NCBI GenBank assembly: GCA_013388985.1
Contig: JACAEF010000011.1
Coordinates: 1 to 64,000 of the forward strand
Direction: 5' to 3'
DNA from: Rhodocyclaceae bacterium
GTDB lineage: Bacteria > Pseudomonadota > Gammaproteobacteria > Burkholderiales > Rhodocyclaceae
Length of the DNA: 64,000 nt
Every line of letters begins with the position of its first letter. Position 1 is the stretch's first letter. The notes under the pieces are model-generated. The model saw only the letters and a program-made list of their open reading frames with translations, had not been told where the DNA came from and did no database searches. This document shows positions 1,991 through 57,973 of the stretch, piece after piece. The position numbers were made by a program, and so were the translations under genes.

Positions 1991-2611
1991 ATGACCCGCC
2001 TTTGCCTGATCCGCCACGGCGAAACCGACTGGAACGCCGGCAAGCGCATCCAGGGCCAGATCGACATTCCCCTCTCGGCGCTCGGCCACGCGCAGGCGCG
2101 CGCCGTCGGCAACGCGCTCAAGGACGAGGATTTCGCGGCGATCTACGCCAGCGACCTGACGCGCACGCGCCAGACCGCGGAAGCGACCGCGCATCTCGCC
2201 CGTCTGCCGCTGCTGCTCGATGCCGGCTTTCGTGAGCGCCATTACGGCATCTTCCAGGGGCTCACCTACGCCGAATGCGAAGCGCGTCACCCGGCCGCTT
2301 ACGCCCGCCACAAATCGCGCGATCCGCATTTCGCGCCGGAAGGCGGGGAAAGCCTGCTCACCTTCGCCGGCCGGCTGGCGCAAGCCTTCGATGCGATCGT
2401 GCGGCGCCACCCTGGCCAGAGCGTGGCGATCTTCACCCATGGCGGTGTGCTCGACATCGCCTACCGCCAGGCGACCGGCATGGCGCTCTCCGCGCCGCGC
2501 GATTTCGCGATCCCGAATTGCGCCATCAACTGGATCGAAGTCGAGGCCGGCTGCTGGACCTTGCTGTCCTGGGCAGAGCGCGGCCACCTGGACAAAGGAA
2601 CCTCTGAATAA
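1991..2611 (+). CDS. histidine phosphatase family protein (phosphoglycerate mutase-like)
   Basis: MTRLCLIRHGETDWNAGKRIQGQIDIPLS; RHGETDWN motif and later FTHGGV. Confidence 0.85.
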   Translation: MTRLCLIRHGETDWNAGKRIQGQIDIPLSALGHAQARAVGNALKDEDFAAIYASDLTRTRQTAEATAHLARLPLLLDAGFRERHYGIFQGLTYAECEARHPAAYARHKSRDPHFAPEGGESLLTFAGRLAQAFDAIVRRHPGQSVAIFTHGGVLDIAYRQATGMALSAPRDFAIPNCAINWIEVEAGCWTLLSWAERGHLDKGTSE

Positions 2612-2733
2612 CCTGCTGCGCGCTCCGTTCGCTGTGTCGCGTGCTCGCTCGCTCCTCGCCTATCTGCTGGATATGTCTCGTCGCTCGCTGCGCGGCTCCT
2701 TGCGCCCGGAGCTGCTCGCGACGGTTCTTCAGA
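2603..2733 (+). repeat. ERIC-like imperfect palindrome, copy 1
   Basis: TCTGAATAACC...GGTTCTTCAGA terminal stem; core CTGCTGCGCG...CTCGCC TATC-GATA TGTCTCG...CGCTCGCGACG shared with four other copies; overlaps the stop codon of the upstream CDS. Confidence 0.75.
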
Positions 2734-2811
2734 GATTCCCAAGGCGCTCGACGAGCTCTGAACGGGTAGAATCCGCGTTTTGTGACCACCCTGCCCGACA
2801 GGACACGCGCC

Positions 2812-11173: not shown

Positions 11174-11434
11174 ATGGCCAAAGTCGAAATGTATTGCACC
11201 GCCGTCTGTCCCTACTGCGTGCGCGCCGAGGCGCTCTTGCGGCGCAAGGGCGTGACCGAGATCGAGAAGATCATGGTCGATCGAGACCCGGCCAAGCGTC
11301 AGGAAATGGAAGCGCGCGTGCCCGGCGCGCGCACGGTCCCGCAAATCTTCATCAATGGCCTCCATGTCGGCGGCTGCGACGACATCCACGAACTCGACCG
11401 GCAGGGTAAGCTCGATCCCCTGCTGGCGAACTGA
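11174..11434 (+). CDS. grxC: glutaredoxin 3
   Basis: MAKVEMYCTAVCPYCVRAEALLRRKG; CPYC motif, RTVPQIFINGLHVGGCDD. Confidence 0.94.
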   Translation: MAKVEMYCTAVCPYCVRAEALLRRKGVTEIEKIMVDRDPAKRQEMEARVPGARTVPQIFINGLHVGGCDDIHELDRQGKLDPLLAN

Positions 11435-11436
11435 GA

Positions 11437-11576
11437 GCTTGTGAAAATTTCTGCTGCGCGTCCCTGGGCTCGCGTTGCGCGGTGCTCGGAACCTCGCCTA
11501 ACTTTCTGTTATGTCTCGGTTCCTGTGCTCCGTGCGCCTTGCCCTCGGCCCGCTCGCGACGAAATTTTTTACAAGC
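11437..11576 (+). repeat. ERIC-like imperfect palindrome, copy 2
   Basis: GCTTGTGAAAATTTC...GAAATTTTTTACAAGC terminal stem; apical TAAC-GTTA; GGAACC/GGTTCC middle stem; between grxC and secB. Confidence 0.78.
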
Positions 11577-11610
11577 CCTGCCCCCTCCCTCCACTTTTTT
11601 CAGGTCCATC

Positions 11611-18622: not shown

Positions 18623-18648
18623 TCGAGCGACGACATTTCCTTCATCGC

Positions 18649-18680
18649 GGCCCGGCCCTGTCCGGGCCGTTTCGTTTTTT
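18649..18680 (+). terminator. terminator-like hairpin immediately upstream of DUF1640-like gene 1
   Basis: GGCCCGG CCCTGT CCGGGCC then GTTTCGTTTTTT. Confidence 0.7.
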
Positions 18681-18707
18681 CGTCCCGCTTTCTGCTATTC
18701 TTTGCGC

Positions 18708-18953
18708 ATGGCATCCATCACCTTCGACACCCATAAGTTCGTCCGCAAGCTCCAGGAAGGCGGCTTCAATGAAAAACAAGCCGAGTCGCTGACCGAAGCC
18801 TTGCGTGCCGCGATCGACGATTCGGAGCTGGTCACGAAAAAGGACCTGCAAATCGAGTTGGCGCCGGTCAAGGCTGATTTGCTGCTGCTCAAGTGGATGA
18901 TCGGCTTCAACCTCGCCTTCACGATGGCGGTGCTCTGGAAGGTCTTCGGCTAG
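18708..18953 (+). CDS. DUF1640/CCDC90-like small membrane protein, paralog 1
   Basis: MASITFDTHKFVRKLQEGGFNEKQAESLTEALRAA... with C-terminal TM. Confidence 0.75.
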   Translation: MASITFDTHKFVRKLQEGGFNEKQAESLTEALRAAIDDSELVTKKDLQIELAPVKADLLLLKWMIGFNLAFTMAVLWKVFG

Positions 18954-19040
18954 CCCGGATATTTCACGAGTCCCAAGTAATCAGGGACAGACCCCGATTT
19001 TGCGATTTTGGAAGTCCTAGGCCAGCTACCCTGAAATGGC

Positions 19041-19072
19041 GGCCCGGAAACATCCGGGCCGTTTCGTTTTTT
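19041..19072 (+). terminator. terminator-like hairpin immediately upstream of DUF1640-like gene 2
   Basis: GGCCCGGAAACATCCGGGCC then GTTTCGTTTTTT. Confidence 0.7.
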
Positions 19073-19099
19073 CGTCCCGCTTTCTGCTATTCTTTGCGC

Positions 19100-19369
19100 A
19101 TGGCGACGACTACCTTCGACACCCTCAAATTCGCCGAACGGCTCAAGGCCGGCGGCGTCCCCGAAGCGCAGGCCAAGGCCGAAGCCGAAGCCCTGGCCGC
19201 CGCGCTCGCCGAGGCGATGGACCAACAGTTGGCGACGAAAGGAGATCTCTACCGGATTGAGAAAGAAATCGCCGCCCTGCATACCGAAATCGTCGTCGTC
19301 AAATGGATGCTTGGCGTGGTCGTGGCCGCGACGGTCATCCCTTTGCTCAAACCTCTGCTCGGGGGATAA
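19100..19369 (+). CDS. DUF1640/CCDC90-like small membrane protein, paralog 2
   Basis: MATTTFDTLKFAERLKAGGVPEAQAKAEAEALAAAL... KWMLGVVVAATVIPLLKPLLGG. Confidence 0.78.
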   Translation: MATTTFDTLKFAERLKAGGVPEAQAKAEAEALAAALAEAMDQQLATKGDLYRIEKEIAALHTEIVVVKWMLGVVVAATVIPLLKPLLGG

Positions 19370-19491
19370 AGAGCAGGTAGTCGGGGGCAGACCCCGATTT
19401 CGTGAGCCCCAAGGCGGCTCCTCTGATATGGCAGCCCGGAGCGATCCGGGCCGTCATGTTTCCGCGCACCGAATTCTGACATTCTTTGCTC

Positions 19492-19725
19492 ATGGCATCC
19501 ATTACGTTCGACACCCTCAAGTTCGCCGATCGCCTGAAAGAGGCCGGGGTTCCGGTGGCTCAGGCGGAAGCCGAGGTGCGCGCGTTGGCCGAGGCGTTGT
19601 CCGCTTCCGATATTGCCACGAAGGCCGACCTGAGTGAACTGAAGATGGACATCGTCATGTGGATGGTGGGTTTGGCCCTTGCCCAGTTGGGCTTGCTCAT
19701 TGGTATCCTCGTCAGGCTGCTCTGA
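19492..19725 (+). CDS. DUF1640/CCDC90-like small membrane protein, paralog 3
   Basis: MASITFDTLKFADRLKEAGVPVAQAEAEVRALAEAL... C-terminal TM. Confidence 0.78.
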   Translation: MASITFDTLKFADRLKEAGVPVAQAEAEVRALAEALSASDIATKADLSELKMDIVMWMVGLALAQLGLLIGILVRLL

Positions 19726-30102: not shown

Positions 30103-33100
30103 TCAGTTGAACTTCGCCGCCCGCGCCATCAGCTTCTCGATGCCCGGCTCGCTCATGTTCCACGGCGTGCCCGGATGGATGCAGCCCGCCGTGCATTTCT
30201 CCGCCGCCTTGACGATGTCGGCGAATTTCGCGCCTTTCGGGTTGATGACGATCGCCAGCTTCTGCTCGTTGTAGGCGAACACCTGCGGCGCGAGGTTGAT
30301 GCACTCGTCGCAGGCCGTGCACTCCGGCGTCTCGATCCAGACCGGTTCGTAATCGCCACCCGCCGCGGCGCCGCTTTCGGCCGCCTGCTGCAAAGTCGGC
30401 GCTGGCGAGACGGCACCCGGAGCGAAATCGCTGCCGGCGAGCCCCAGCGTGTTGCTGATCTTGGCCAGCAGATCGGCGCGCACGCGCTCGGCGATCGCCG
30501 CGGTATCCACGGGCTGTGCATCGAGTCCGGCGATGTTGCGCAACTGGCGCCAGAACGCGAGGCGCTCCTCGGTCGAGCGCACCATGTCCTCGGTGACCAA
30601 CAGGCGCATCAGACGGTTCTTCGCATCGACGGCCCAGATGAACGGGAACTTGCCCTCGCGCTCGTCCTCGTCGAGGGCGATGAAGTCGGCCAGGAGCACC
30701 ATGTTCTCGTTCCAGGTCTCCGGCGGCGCCTTCTTGAAATGCTTGAGGAAGCGCGCCTCGGTGGCGGCGAAGTCGGCGAAGGTCATCGGCAGGGTCATGC
30801 TCTGCTCGTGTCCTGCCTCGTCGCGGTATTTGAGCGTGTAGGTCGGCCAGTCGGCCTCCAGCGCCGGGTTGCCTTCCAGGCTCACCGTCTCGTGGAAGGT
30901 GGTGCCCAGATCGGGGTTGAAGCGGAACAGCGGATAGGCACGGCTTTCCACCGCGAGCTTGCTCTGATCGACGCTCCTGTCGTCGCCGACGCCATGCTCG
31001 GGCGGGCAGACCGCGTAGATGTTGAACAGCGCCGGGCGGCGGCTGTTCAAGCCGTCGATGTAGCTCTCCAAGAGGTGATTGACGTGGGCGATCGTGCCTT
31101 GCATCACATACGCGGTGCGATGCGCCATGCCGATCAGCGAAATCTCCTTGCGCGTCTCCTGCTTGCCGCGTTGCGCCGGGCCGAAGGCGGCCATGTCGGA
31201 GACTTGGGAAATGAAGCCCGAGGTGCAGGCTTGCCCGCCGGTGTTCGAATACACCTGCGTATCGACCACCAGCACCTTGATCGGCATGCCCGACATCAAG
31301 GCGCGCGAGAGGTTCTGGAAGCCGATGTCGTACATCGCGCCATCGCCGCCCAGCGCGACGACCGGCGGGCAGAGCAGCCACTCCTCCTCGGAAAAGTCAT
31401 GCCAGGTGAAGCGGCGGAAGAAGTCGTCGTCGCGGTCCGGCAGATAGTCGCCGGCCAGCTCCTTCTCGGCCATGCGCACGGCCTTGAAGCCTTCGGCCAT
31501 CTTCGCCATGTGCCCCTCGAACAGGCCCATCGCCACGGACGGCGAATCCTGGAAGAGATGCGAGGTCCACGGGAAGGGATAGGGGTGGAACGGATACGTC
31601 GAGCCCCACACCGAGGTGCAGCCGGTCGAGTTGACGATGCCCATTTCGGCGCGGCCGCGGCCGGTCGGGCCGGCGACATAGCGCCAACGCAGATCCTTGA
31701 GCTTCTCGATCAGCTGGGCGGTGTTCTTGACCCAGACCGGATCGAGCAGCTGCGAGGGCTTGTTCTCGGTGAGCTTGGCGGCCAGATTCGAGAGTGTCAG
31801 ATCGTGCTGGCCGGTCGCCTCCACCGCGCGCACCACCGCGCTGGTGTCGGTGAGATCGACGGCGGAGGCGAGCTTGATGCGCATGTGCTGTTCGAGCCGC
31901 GCGATCAGGTCGTCGAGCTTGGCGACGAAGGCCGCCACGCGCGGCTGCATCAGTGCCGTCACCGTCGAGGTGAACAGGTGGATCGCGGTCTTCTCGCCGC
32001 AGCCCAGACACGCCCCGTCGCCGCAGTTCATCGAGTTGTAGTTGTGCTTGTCGAGCAGCAGGGTCTCCAGCGCGCCGATCTTTTCGTCCAGACTCTCGAT
32101 GCGGCTGTACTCCTTCGGCGTGGTCGGCAGGTCGAGCCAGAAGTTCCAGTCGCGGCGCAGCCGGTCGACCGTTTCATCGGTCTGCGTCACCATCTTCAGC
32201 GCGTCGTCCTCGCAGACCGTCACGCACAAGGCGCAGGCCTTGCAGGTGTAGGGGTTGATGGTGATCGAGAACAGCCCGCCGCTGCCCTTGGCCTTTTTCT
32301 CCTTCAGGCTCCAGTAGGGCTTGGTGGTGGCGAACTGGAAGTCGCCGAGCTCCTGGGTGAACAGCTTGAACTCGGCGCCCATCTTTTCCCAGTCGTCCTC
32401 GTCCGCCTCGGCGATGGTTTCCTCGATCGCCTTGTCGATCAGCGGCCGCACCGCGACGCCGTCGCTGGTGCCGATCAGCGCGCGCAGCTTCTTCTCCAGC
32501 GTGCGCACGCCGCGACGCAGGAAGCGGGTCGGCGTGCCGGCGGTCTCGATGCGGTTGACGACGGTGGTGAAGACATCGCCGATCGTGCTCACCAGGCCGG
32601 GGATCGCCGAATCGGGGCACTCGGTATAGCAGTTGCCGCAGGCGGTGCAGTTCTCGGCGATCCACACCGGATGCTCGAAGCGGATGCCGGTCATGTCGCG
32701 GAACACGCCGGTCGCCGCCGGCATCAACGACGTGCCGATGAACGGGTCGACGAGGTTGTCCGAGCCTTTGCCGGTCAGATAGAAGTGGCCGGTCTGCTCC
32801 CAGAAGCGGTGGATGTCGGCGACGCGGCCGTCGGCGGCGGGCAGTTCCTTGAGCATCACCGGCAGGCCGACGTCCTTCTTGAGAAGCTGCCTGCGCGTCT
32901 TGCCGACTTCCTTGTCGGTGATTTCCTTGAGCTCGGTGTAGCCGCGCTTGACGACACGCAGGTTGTCCTGCACGACGCGCGCGCCCTTGGATCCGAACTT
33001 GGCATCGAGCTGCGCCTCGATCGCGGCGAATAGGGTTTCCTCGCTCAGGCCGGCATTCGCCATCGTCGGACTGGCGGCGAAGAACGCGCCCTGGAAGGCG

Positions 33101-35031
33101 ATGCCCTGCATGCGCAACTGCAGCTCGGGCGAGCCCGCCTCCTCGCGCGCGATCTGGAAGGCATCGAGGTAGAAGACGCGGATCTCGTTGTCGACGATGA
33201 ACTTCTGCGCCCAGACCGGGAAGCTCGCCCAAGTCTCGTCGCCGAGGTTCGACTGGATGATGAACACGCCGCCCTTCTTCAGACCCGAGAGCGGGTTACT
33301 GTGGCCGAAGACGTTCGGGTCGGGCGAGAGCACGACATCGACATAGGTGTATTCGCAGTTGATGCGGATCGGCTCCGGCGCGGCGGAAAGGTAATAGGTG
33401 GTCGGCTGGCCCTTCTTCTCCGAGCCGTATTTCGGGTTGGCCTTGATGTCCCAGCCCAGGAGCTCGAACAGCGTCATCGCCAGGTTCTTGCCGGTGGTGA
33501 TCGCGCCCCAGCCGCCCACCGAGTGCATGCGCACGGTGATCGCGCCCTTGGGCAGCAGGTTCGGATTTTCCGAGCCGCGGATCGCCAGCGCGCGGATCTG
33601 CGGATATTTCTCCTGCAGCTCCTGCTGATGCACCTCGTCCTTCGGATTGAGCGGGTCGCGCACGAAGTCGACCGACAGATAGTAGAACTTGCGCTGCGCG
33701 CCGCCGGGCAGCATGTTCTCGACCGCGGCGATCAGCCCCTCGGGTTGCAGGTCGCGCGAGCCCAGGCCATAGCAGCCGGAGTAGAGGCGCGGCATTTCGC
33801 TGGCGGCGAAGCTCGCGTAGCCGGGATAGGGCTTGTCGTCCCCCGAGGCCAAACCGTTCTCGAGGCACTTGGTGACCGTCGCGCGCACTTCGCGCATCAG
33901 CGGCAGATCCTCGGCGAGCGGCTGGTCGGTGCGCTCGAGCACCGCCACGCCCTTCTTGCCGCGCAATACCTTGCCGAGCAGGTCGCCCGGGAAAGGCCGA
34001 TACATCGTCACATTCACCACGCCGACCTTGAGGCCGCGCGTCTCGCGCAGATAGTCGGCCACACACTCGGCCTGCACCACCATGCTGCCCATGCCGACGA
34101 TCAGCCAGTCGGCATCTTCGGTCCTGTAAGTGGAAATGCGGCCGTAGTGCCGTCCCGTCAGCGCCGAGTATTCGGCCATGCAGGCGTCGGTGATCTGCTC
34201 GATGTGGTCGAAGAAATAGGGGCGCTGGCCGGCGGTGGCCTGCATGTAGGCATCCTGGTTCTGCACCACGCCGGAGACGAGCGGCACATCGACATCCCAG
34301 ATCGCCGGCACGCGGCGGCGCTTCGGCCCGTAGAGCATCGCCTGCGCGGGTGTCGGCGTGTCGATGATGTCGTCGGGCCGGCCGACGAACTCCTCGATCA
34401 GCTCGCGTTCCGGAAGCAGCGCCGATTCGATCAGATGCGTGGTGAGAAAGCCATCCTGGCCGACGATCGCGGGGGTGAGCGAGAGCTCGGCGATTTTGCG
34501 CGCGATCAGGTTGAGGTCGGCGCACTCGGTGGCGTTCTTCGCCATCACCTGGATGAAGCCGGTGTCATCGACGCAGTGGTAGTCGTCGTGGCTGCAATGC
34601 ACGTTCAAGGACGCCTTGGTGATCGCGCGGCAGCCCATGTTGAGCACATAAGGCAGGCGTTTTCCCACCGCGCCATAGAGCGATTCGTGCATGAACGCGA
34701 CCCCCTGCGCCGAGGAGAAGTTCGTCGCCCGCAGGCCCGCCATCGCCATGCCGGCCGTTACCCCCGCCGCGGCGTGCTCGGATTCGGGCTCGATGAATAC
34801 CAGCGGGCGCCGGGAAATGTTCAGATGTCCCTTGGCGACCTCATCGGCCCAGTATTCGCCCATCTGCGTCGAAGGCGTGATCGGATAGGCGCCGGCGGCA
34901 TCCGAGGCCTCGCGCTCGACGTGGATGATCGCGGTGTTGCCATCGACGGCGTCGCGGATGCCCGGATACTTCACCTGCGGGGTGGCCTGGCCGCTCTCGC
35001 TCTTGTCGGACTTGAACAGTTTCATCAACAT
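30103..35031 (-). CDS. nifJ: pyruvate:ferredoxin (flavodoxin) oxidoreductase, expanded 1642-aa form with C-terminal ferredoxin domain
   Basis: YPITPSTQMGEYWADE; CTACGNCYTECPDSAI and CKACALCVTVCEDDAL; GDGAMYDIGFQNLSRAL TPP motif; C-terminal CTACDECINLAPQVF...CTAGCIHPG. Confidence 0.93.
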   Translation of the reverse strand: MLMKLFKSDKSESGQATPQVKYPGIRDAVDGNTAIIHVEREASDAAGAYPITPSTQMGEYWADEVAKGHLNISRRPLVFIEPESEHAAAGVTAGMAMAGLRATNFSSAQGVAFMHESLYGAVGKRLPYVLNMGCRAITKASLNVHCSHDDYHCVDDTGFIQVMAKNATECADLNLIARKIAELSLTPAIVGQDGFLTTHLIESALLPERELIEEFVGRPDDIIDTPTPAQAMLYGPKRRRVPAIWDVDVPLVSGVVQNQDAYMQATAGQRPYFFDHIEQITDACMAEYSALTGRHYGRISTYRTEDADWLIVGMGSMVVQAECVADYLRETRGLKVGVVNVTMYRPFPGDLLGKVLRGKKGVAVLERTDQPLAEDLPLMREVRATVTKCLENGLASGDDKPYPGYASFAASEMPRLYSGCYGLGSRDLQPEGLIAAVENMLPGGAQRKFYYLSVDFVRDPLNPKDEVHQQELQEKYPQIRALAIRGSENPNLLPKGAITVRMHSVGGWGAITTGKNLAMTLFELLGWDIKANPKYGSEKKGQPTTYYLSAAPEPIRINCEYTYVDVVLSPDPNVFGHSNPLSGLKKGGVFIIQSNLGDETWASFPVWAQKFIVDNEIRVFYLDAFQIAREEAGSPELQLRMQGIAFQGAFFAASPTMANAGLSEETLFAAIEAQLDAKFGSKGARVVQDNLRVVKRGYTELKEITDKEVGKTRRQLLKKDVGLPVMLKELPAADGRVADIHRFWEQTGHFYLTGKGSDNLVDPFIGTSLMPAATGVFRDMTGIRFEHPVWIAENCTACGNCYTECPDSAIPGLVSTIGDVFTTVVNRIETAGTPTRFLRRGVRTLEKKLRALIGTSDGVAVRPLIDKAIEETIAEADEDDWEKMGAEFKLFTQELGDFQFATTKPYWSLKEKKAKGSGGLFSITINPYTCKACALCVTVCEDDALKMVTQTDETVDRLRRDWNFWLDLPTTPKEYSRIESLDEKIGALETLLLDKHNYNSMNCGDGACLGCGEKTAIHLFTSTVTALMQPRVAAFVAKLDDLIARLEQHMRIKLASAVDLTDTSAVVRAVEATGQHDLTLSNLAAKLTENKPSQLLDPVWVKNTAQLIEKLKDLRWRYVAGPTGRGRAEMGIVNSTGCTSVWGSTYPFHPYPFPWTSHLFQDSPSVAMGLFEGHMAKMAEGFKAVRMAEKELAGDYLPDRDDDFFRRFTWHDFSEEEWLLCPPVVALGGDGAMYDIGFQNLSRALMSGMPIKVLVVDTQVYSNTGGQACTSGFISQVSDMAAFGPAQRGKQETRKEISLIGMAHRTAYVMQGTIAHVNHLLESYIDGLNSRRPALFNIYAVCPPEHGVGDDRSVDQSKLAVESRAYPLFRFNPDLGTTFHETVSLEGNPALEADWPTYTLKYRDEAGHEQSMTLPMTFADFAATEARFLKHFKKAPPETWNENMVLLADFIALDEDEREGKFPFIWAVDAKNRLMRLLVTEDMVRSTEERLAFWRQLRNIAGLDAQPVDTAAIAERVRADLLAKISNTLGLAGSDFAPGAVSPAPTLQQAAESGAAAGGDYEPVWIETPECTACDECINLAPQVFAYNEQKLAIVINPKGAKFADIVKAAEKCTAGCIHPGTPWNMSEPGIEKLMARAAKFN
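30391..30418 (+). repeat. dispersed mini-repeat copy in the nifJ interdomain linker
   Basis: CAAAGTCGGCGCTGGCGAGACGGCACCC; read on the gene strand as GAVSPAPTL. Confidence 0.75.
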
Positions 35032-35071: not shown

Positions 35072-35214
35072 GAAACCTTTGCCCAGCGCCGCGAGCGGGA
35101 TGAGATGCAAGGCGCACGGAGCGCAGGATGCGAGACATACCTGCCAGGTAGGCGAGCATCCGAGCACCGGGCAACAACGCAGATCGCCCGCGCAGCAAGT
35201 TGGGCAAAGGTTTC
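35072..35214 (-). repeat. ERIC-like imperfect palindrome, copy 3
   Basis: GAAACCTTTGCCCAGC...GTTGGGCAAAGGTTTC terminal stem; apical TACCTG-CAGGTA; GGATGC/GCATCC middle stem; between rnfB and nifJ. Confidence 0.78.
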
Positions 35215-36480: not shown

Positions 36481-36486
36481 CTACAG

Positions 36487-36627
36487 GGCGCCTCGAAAAA
36501 CCGTCGCGAGCGGGTGGAGGGCAAGGCGCACGGAGCGCAGCGACCGAGACATATCAAGGTGATAGGCGAGGAAGCGAGCACCGCGCAACGCGAGCCTAGG
36601 GCCGCGCAGCAGGTTATTCGAGGTGCC
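36487..36627 (-). repeat. ERIC-like imperfect palindrome, copy 4
   Basis: GGCGCCTCGAAAAACC...GGTTATTCGAGGTGCC terminal stem; apical TATCA-TGATA. Confidence 0.78.
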
Positions 36628-36684
36628 CAACAAGTTGATGCCCGTTAAGTCTTTTCCTGCGCATTCAGGCAAAATGCGCCTCCC

Positions 36685-57263: not shown

Positions 57264-57850
57264 AACAGATCGTCCTCGCCTCGAACAACCCCGGCAAGCT
57301 GCGCGAATTCGGCCAGATGCTCGCCACCCTCGACATCGAGGTGCTGCCGCAGGCGCAGTTCGACATCCCGGAAGCCGAAGAGCCGCACATCACCTTCGTC
57401 GAGAACGCGCTCGCCAAGGCTCGCCACGCGGCGAAGCTCACGGGGCTACCGGCGCTCGCAGACGATTCGGGCATCTGCGTCAAGGCCCTGGGCGGCGCGC
57501 CGGGTGTCTATTCGGCGCGCTATGCCGGCGAGCCGAAATCCGACGAGCGCAACAACCAAAAACTCATTGCCGAACTCGCCGGCAAGACGGATCGCCGCGC
57601 GCACTACGTCGCCCTACTCGTCTTCGTCCATCACGCCGAGGATCCGCAGCCGATCATCTGCGAGGGCGAATGGCATGGCGAGATCATCGACACGCCAAGG
57701 GGCGAGAACGGCTTCGGCTACGACCCCTATTTCCTCGTGCCCGAGCTCGGGCGCACCGCCGCCGAGCTGTCGGCCGACGAAAAGAATGCCCGCTCCCATC
57801 GCGGCAAGGCGTTGCGGCAGCTGATCGAACGGCTCAAGCTCGACGCTTGA
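57260..57850 (+). CDS. rdgB: XTP/dITP diphosphatase
   Basis: [46 protein letters not shown]. Confidence 0.96.
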
Positions 57851-57973
57851 GAATTCTGCTGCGCTTGTTGATTCTGCGTTACTCGCTCGCTCAAGGCTGC
57901 GCCTATCTTCACGATATGTCTTGCCTTTCGCTCGCTCGCGCCTTGCCTCAACTACGCTCGCCACGAATTCTCG
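57849..57973 (+). repeat. ERIC-like imperfect palindrome, copy 5
   Basis: GAGAATTC...GAATTCTC terminal stem; apical TATC-GATA; AAGGC/GCCTT middle stem; overlaps the rdgB stop codon. Confidence 0.7.

Follow-up and report, generated by a model that had tools for sequence, protein, structure and literature searches.

The repeated hairpin that occurs five times in the window (the whole stretch of 64,000 nt of Rhodocyclaceae DNA analysed here) is very probably a non-autonomous MITE of about 143 bp, which appears to be moved by IS5-family transposases. MITEs as a kind are known, and each is commonly regarded as having arisen from a single parent transposon by internal deletion; the new part would be a repeated exchange of TIRs around a conserved hairpin core. 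All five copies claimed by the first-pass annotation were found (Table 1), they align over a common internal consensus once the copies at 35072 and 36487, which lie on the minus strand, are reversed, and the description given there of complementary outer, middle and apical segments proved correct.

Copy 2 was registered as a covariance-model match with E 5.8e-34 and is intergenic, with a glutaredoxin gene on one side and, on the other, a gene which by similarity we take to be secB. The right half of its duplication, TGC at 11579–11581, has one mismatch relative to the TGA on the left. Its inner core represents the part common to all end classes and all host groups. Copy 3 has genes of a POR-type oxidoreductase and of a ferredoxin-domain (Fe-S) protein, one on each side, and the left edge of the decayed copy 5 overlaps the TGA stop (57848–57850) of a Ham1-family (rdgB-type) gene. 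Upstream of copy 1 there is a histidine-phosphatase gene, the frame of which stops at TAA 2609–2611, inside the left arm of the copy, so that the insertion may have changed the C-terminus of its product.

Table 1. Coordinates of hairpin element copies, their parts and other repeats in the window, and of IS110-family elements residing in copies of congener G017
Feature	Position	Strand	Description
Copy 1	2597–2739	+	class D arms GGAACCTCTGAATAACC / GGTTCTTCAGAGATTCC; flanks CAAA / CAAG
Copy 2	11435–11578	+	class A arms GAGCTTGTGAAAATTTC / GAAATTTTTTACAAGCCC; 144 bp
TGA	11432–11434	+	glutaredoxin stop codon, left half of the 3-bp target-site duplication of copy 2
Copy 2 inner core	11468–11542 (limits approximate)	+	GCTCGCGTTGCGCGGTGCTCG...TATGTCTCG...CTGTGCTCCGTGCGCCTTGC
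Copy 3	35072–35214	-	class E2 arms GAAACCTTTGCCCAAC / GCTGGGCAAAGGTTTC; 143 bp
Copy 4	36486–36628	-	class C arms GGGCACCTCGAATAACC / GGTTTTTCGAGGCGCCC; 143 bp; covariance-model match; flanks TGTT / TGTA
Copy 5	57849–57973	+	decayed; arms GAGAATTC / GAATTCTC, only about 8 bp
Motif AAAGTCGGCGCTGGCGGGACGGCACC	4716, 5578, 17345, 19865, 27298, 30392, 34146, 36455, 43306, 46997, 54694, 58003, 59121	both orientations	second dispersed repeat, 26 nt
Left-edge IS110 type, two near-identical copies	L223 1435–2669; L227 1434–2669		between CTGA and GAGCTTG
Apical-loop IS110	L198 461–1910		G017

In nearly all copies of all classes the element is 142–144 bp long, which falls within the 50–500 bp characteristic of MITEs and is too short to encode a transposase. 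It is composed of TIRs of 15–17 bp, a class-linked junction of about 19 bp per side and an imperfect hairpin core of about 75 bp. The outer arms sort into discrete classes, A (GAGCTTGTGAAAATTT), B (GGAAACGCTGAATAA), C (GGGCACCTCGAAAAACC), D (GGAACCTCTGAATAACC), E1 (GAAACCCCTGCGAAAC), E2 (GAAACCTCTGCCTAAC) and G (CAGGCTGTTGAAAAAC). Target-site duplication peaks clearly at one exact length per class, although the counts include mutually related copies and are therefore descriptive: it is 3 bp for class A (20 of 36 copies versus 10.6 with shuffled partners), 4 bp for classes B (37 of 81 versus 6.1), C (7 of 13 versus 0.7) and G (10 of 20 versus 2.5), and 5 bp for class E1 (8 of 10 versus 0.8). 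The duplication of class A is statistically weak because TGA is a near-fixed target; a length of 4–5 bp (CTGAG) considered for this class was dropped in favor of 3 bp (TGA) on the class-wise statistics. No clear target duplication was seen in the six copies of class E2.

Modularity of this design was estimated from the alignment of 150 elements as mean identity within and between classes. It comprised 0.85 and 0.44 for TIRs and 0.74 and 0.55 for junctions, while the corresponding values were 0.91 and 0.89 for the inner stem, 0.66 and 0.67 for the mid-stem and 0.82 and 0.81 for the apex, where conservation of the core is inflated, within and between classes alike, by loci from outside the genus, most of which were collected with an exact core pattern. 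The mid-stem allele CTCCCT/GGTCGC was found in six TIR classes and GATGCT/GCATCC in five. Thus, the inner core keeps no memory of the TIR class. It is the unrelated TIRs around the same core that were perceived in the first-pass annotation as outer stems which differ in each copy yet stay self-complementary; the observation holds and is explained by exchanged IS-type TIRs with their target-site duplications rather than by RNA structure. Some copies (L022, L026, L095, L201 and L432) have a secondary hairpin insert of 30–60 nt, located at about the same place in the core, after GCGCGGTG, and an insert TTGGCTTCGGCCGCT...CGCCGAAACT is common to different genomes. In congener G017 (L199, L200, L214), class A ends also flank a diverged variant of the core, CTTGCCATCTTGGGGTCGGGCGGTGCTCGCC...GGTGGCTGCGCTCCGGCC, and there are deletion forms of 76–86 bp retaining the ends only.

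Position of the element relative to genes is strongly biased. Among 104 distinct copies with enough flanking sequence, 62 have an edge within 6 nt of the stop that closes a frame of 100 or more codons, mostly at offset 0, while for random positions in the same flanks this is the case in about 5%. For class A the proportion is 19 of 23. The duplicated targets themselves hold stop codons, which is TGA for class A and YTAR, ending with TAA or TAG, for classes B and G, so that insertion at the end of a gene regenerates its stop. Such a rule of target duplication would be sufficient for the observed placement, and no function at gene ends needs to be assumed.

Insertion is directly visible from comparison with empty orthologous sites. 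The intergenic site between the glutaredoxin and the next gene occupied by copy 2 is empty in all 17 congeners where it was readable; in G002, for instance, it reads CTGGCGATTTGACCCTCCC, versus CTGGCGAACTGA[element]TGCCCCCTCCC in the window. Cross-comparison of flanks among G000, G002, G006 and G017 gave further filled and empty pairs for classes A, B and G, such as CTAA[element]CTAAAGCG versus TTGAAGCG and CTTAA[element]TTACTGC versus ATTACTTC.

Autonomous partners sharing TIRs with the element, complete or decayed, were found for classes B, C and G, with an approximate match for D. When the class B end was looked for in the absence of the core, a complete IS with ends GGAACCACTGAACAATTC and GGAAACGCTGCATAAATC, duplication TTCA and a transposase with domains PF01609 and PF05598 was found in Modicisalibacter (L235). 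Another IS with the class B end and duplication TTAG resides on a Halopseudomonas plasmid (L402). A search for PF01609 in carrier genomes revealed IS with class G ends, CAGGCCGTTGAAAAA, in congeners G017 and G002 (L419, L426, L432), an IS of Tepidiphilus olei (L403) with ends near those of class D, and a decayed IS with a broken gene in Tepidiphilus margaritifer (L412), the end of which, GGGCACCTCGAAAAACC, is identical to the class C consensus. Intact partner transposases score above the cut-off of NCBIfam model NF033581 (IS5 family), and the class C fragment matches it below the cut-off. Other PF01609 loci of the same genomes have unrelated ends, so the coincidence of partner and element TIRs is not trivial. 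All these IS have the TIR of the element but not its core, and internal derivation from a parent IS is thus not seen. For classes A and E the search of carrier genomes for PF01609 gave no IS. A pattern search for a class A IS in 16 and then in 369 genomes also gave none, many of its matches being chance ones or further copies of the element. No class B IS was found in the bacterial family from which the window originates, one being found instead in Halomonadaceae, and two matches of the class G TIR in viral contigs that were examined for genes contained no IS. The draft genome from which the window originates has no PF01609 match; it is possible that the family can no longer move in this genome, or that its IS copies fell into assembly gaps.

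Further copies are abundant both in the own genome (2.9 Mb, 156 contigs) and beyond it. The sequence of copy 2 alone gave 46 BLAST matches there, and a covariance model built from 29 copies registered 63 at E ≤ 0.01, well above what chance would give. By the same threshold there are 65 matches in G017, 43 in G002, 22 in G006, 41–65 in genomes of Halomonas and Tepidiphilus olei and none in two negative congeners. The core is present in 5 of the 19 genomes of the genus, the own one included, and in 27 of the 369 genomes sampled from the class. Among the matches listed for the species collection, its hosts are Rhodocyclaceae, Tepidiphilus, Thiobacillaceae and relatives of Gallionella, as well as Halomonas, Salinicola, Modicisalibacter, Kushneria, Geobacterales and Desulfuromonas. 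Matches in Nitrospira and Synergistaceae belong to contigs of metagenome assemblies of 3.5 and 4.1 kb and may be contamination. No match to the core was found in phage records and viral contigs, while the search of plasmids gave a single one, on a conjugative Nitrosomonas plasmid, which is a possible vehicle for the element. Class G copies of the own genus and of Geobacterales are as close to each other (0.87 for the core and 0.88 for TIRs) as Geobacterales copies are among themselves, and this similarity points to either transfer between distant hosts or strong constraint. Two genomes of the same class but another family (G106 and G252) have 74 and 42 matches, respectively, several of them having class A ends flush with stop codons.

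A second dispersed repeat was noticed in the window. It is the 26-nt motif AAAGTCGGCGCTGGCGGGACGGCACC, which with up to 5 mismatches allowed occurs 13 times per 64 kb and never in shuffled sequence. Its copies are located both between and within frames, including two inside the large frame of the POR-type gene (30103–35031), and they often adjoin copies of the hairpin element, as they do in G017 and G006. Besides, there are direct repeats of about 177 nt with a spacing of 392 nt at positions 18644–18820, 19036–19212 and 19428–19604, which are 60–75% identical to the first of them.

Conservation of pairing was what suggested a new structured repeat or RNA family in the first-pass annotation, and as a new multicopy family with genuine covariation the element withstands analysis. 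Copy 2 has a folding z-score of -6.3 with RNA and -3.9 with DNA parameters. In 48 representatives of the 150 elements standard pairs occupy 88.9% of pair cells versus 36–50% when the partners are slid by 1–3 columns, and 26 pairs (15 outer and 11 core) are represented by at least two Watson–Crick types, each in at least two sequences, with near-fixed G-T and A-C columns left out. It is the reading as structured RNA that is not supported. According to it, the element is a non-coding RNA or a terminator or stabilizer of mRNA 3′-ends, which is selected as RNA and follows stop codons because it acts on transcripts. A strong hairpin with covariation over the whole length, the 62 copies abutting stop codons and the composition of near-fixed mismatched pairs (four G-T versus one A-C) speak in its favor. 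However, in those pairs of the core that are not near-fixed G-U mismatches (42) are about as numerous as A-C ones (54), and in the outer arms A-C prevail (33 versus 12 G-U), contrary to what is expected from selection acting on one RNA strand. Folding energies of the two strands are practically the same (-61.0 and -60.0 kcal/mol), and both features are what a palindrome kept at the DNA level would show. The covarying outer stem is explained by exchanged TIRs, the copies lie in either orientation relative to genes, the preference for stop codons follows from the duplicated target, distribution within the genus is patchy, and comparison with Rfam, also proposed earlier, gave no matching family at gathering score. 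Thus, a function as RNA is quite unlikely. Another reading assumes a chromosomal site beneficial for the host, that is a hairpin bound by the nucleoid or by a regulator, as was proposed for multicopy sequences of Geobacter metallireducens. Conserved unpaired bases of the core, CTCGCCTA and TATGTCTCG, could be read by a protein, and Geobacter “class 4” sites are said to resemble multicopy sequences of many genomes (PMC2700814). Absence of the core from 14 of the 19 genomes of the genus, emptiness of the one site examined genus-wide (that of copy 2) in all congeners and the lack of an evident shared regulon among the neighbors in the window make this explanation very unlikely.

Variation of the arms may also be imagined without any exchange of ends, if they changed by drift while hairpin template switching or gene conversion between arms preserved their palindromy. 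Indeed, arms of one copy agree better with each other than with those of other copies, and the total length stays constant in nearly all copies of all classes. But drift does not explain why discrete classes recur in distant hosts, as class G does in the own genus and in Geobacterales, why the arms match real IS5-family TIRs and why duplication lengths are class-specific. IS with the same TIR refute it for classes B, C and G and nearly so for D, though not for A or E, so that on the whole we consider drift unlikely. As for IS110-family (DEDD, bridge-RNA) insertion sequences, the element could be their deletion product or could be guided by them, since a DEDD transposase lies within a 1450-bp unit of G017 that is bounded by class A ends, and copies are adjoined by two more DEDD elements. 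This unit looked autonomous and was considered as a parent until comparison of the filled copy with intact L214 showed that it is an IS110 residing in a variant copy, within its apical loop; for the other two, the insertion point is at the left edge, between CTGA and GAGCTTG. Thus, parentage or guidance by IS110 is extremely improbable, and IS110 elements are visitors targeting the repeat, as they are for REPs (PMC1525189). In G017 these visitors are of two unrelated types, each inserting site-specifically, one at the left edge and the other in the apical loop.

Mobilization by IS5-family transposases is therefore the reading we prefer, and the life of the element may be imagined as follows. 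DDE transposases of the NF033581 branch would act in trans on its TIRs and move it, each insertion duplicating 3, 4 or 5 bp of the target depending on the TIR class. Insertions at gene ends, where the stop codon is restored, would be tolerated, and copies would accumulate there. From time to time the TIR pair together with the junction would be replaced around the same core by other TIRs of IS5 type, which could allow the element to use whichever transposase its host holds. Both trans-mobilization and the route of TIR exchange are inferred from comparison of sequences, and intermediates with mixed ends were not seen. The core is most likely retained because its hairpin form assists transposition or makes the element more tolerable for the host. 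That its approximately 75 bp are under selection as a unit, with both TIRs swapped repeatedly among IS5-family transposons, is a tentative proposal, to which we give slightly less than an even chance. If it is true, TIR swaps ensured the survival of the element and its dissemination across Beta- and Gammaproteobacteria and Desulfuromonadota. One core with at least six kinds of ends, three duplication lengths and distant hosts would mean that a non-autonomous element is able, by switching partners, to survive longer than its parent, and the repeat provides a concrete and testable case of how such elements escape extinction. It also explains a common intergenic repeat of many genomes and the reason why such repeats occupy stop codons, and it is a warning against taking covarying stems of repeats as a sure sign of RNA.

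Among known systems, IS5-family IS (NF033581 branch; PF01609) are close to the element. They share with it TIRs of 15–17 bp, which holds for classes B, C and G and approximately for D, and their 4-bp duplications (TTAG, TTCA) are the same as in classes B and G. Unlike these IS, the element lacks a transposase and duplicates 3 bp in class A and 5 bp in class E1, and none of the IS seen contains its core. Similarity with ERIC, supposed in the first-pass annotation, is limited to general appearance: both are imperfect palindromes of comparable size (about 127 bp for ERIC versus 143 bp), intergenic and present in tens of copies. However, the present element shows clear target duplications, occurs with TIRs of several classes and has partners among IS, and no match to its core was found by blastn in 5,426 genomes of E. 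coli, a host of ERIC. The Correia element, a MITE of Neisseria, is not known outside this genus or with more than one TIR type, whereas the present core is combined with six or more TIR classes and occurs in several classes of bacteria. Otherwise, according to the accessible part of a review of MITEs, the two are alike in being short, non-coding, TIR-bounded, multicopy, intergenic and foldable (PMC10969869). The same part of that review makes no mention of a family with exchanged ends, and no described MITE identical to the element was met in the literature reached, even though it is of MITE kind. REPs, with which a RAYT transposase is associated, are palindromes of 21–65 bases and known targets of IS110/IS1111 (PMC1525189). 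They resemble it as palindromic landing sites for the IS110 family, two unrelated types of which reside in its copies, but the element is longer (143 bp) and has transposon ends. Finally, palindromic sequences present in multiple copies were described in Geobacter metallireducens and G. bemidjiensis and were proposed to be binding sites of global regulators; one set of them, “class 4”, is similar to sequences of many genomes (PMC2700814, PMC2996986). Geobacterales carry the class G form of the element, and these sequences, compared here by their description, are possibly an earlier partial sighting of it.
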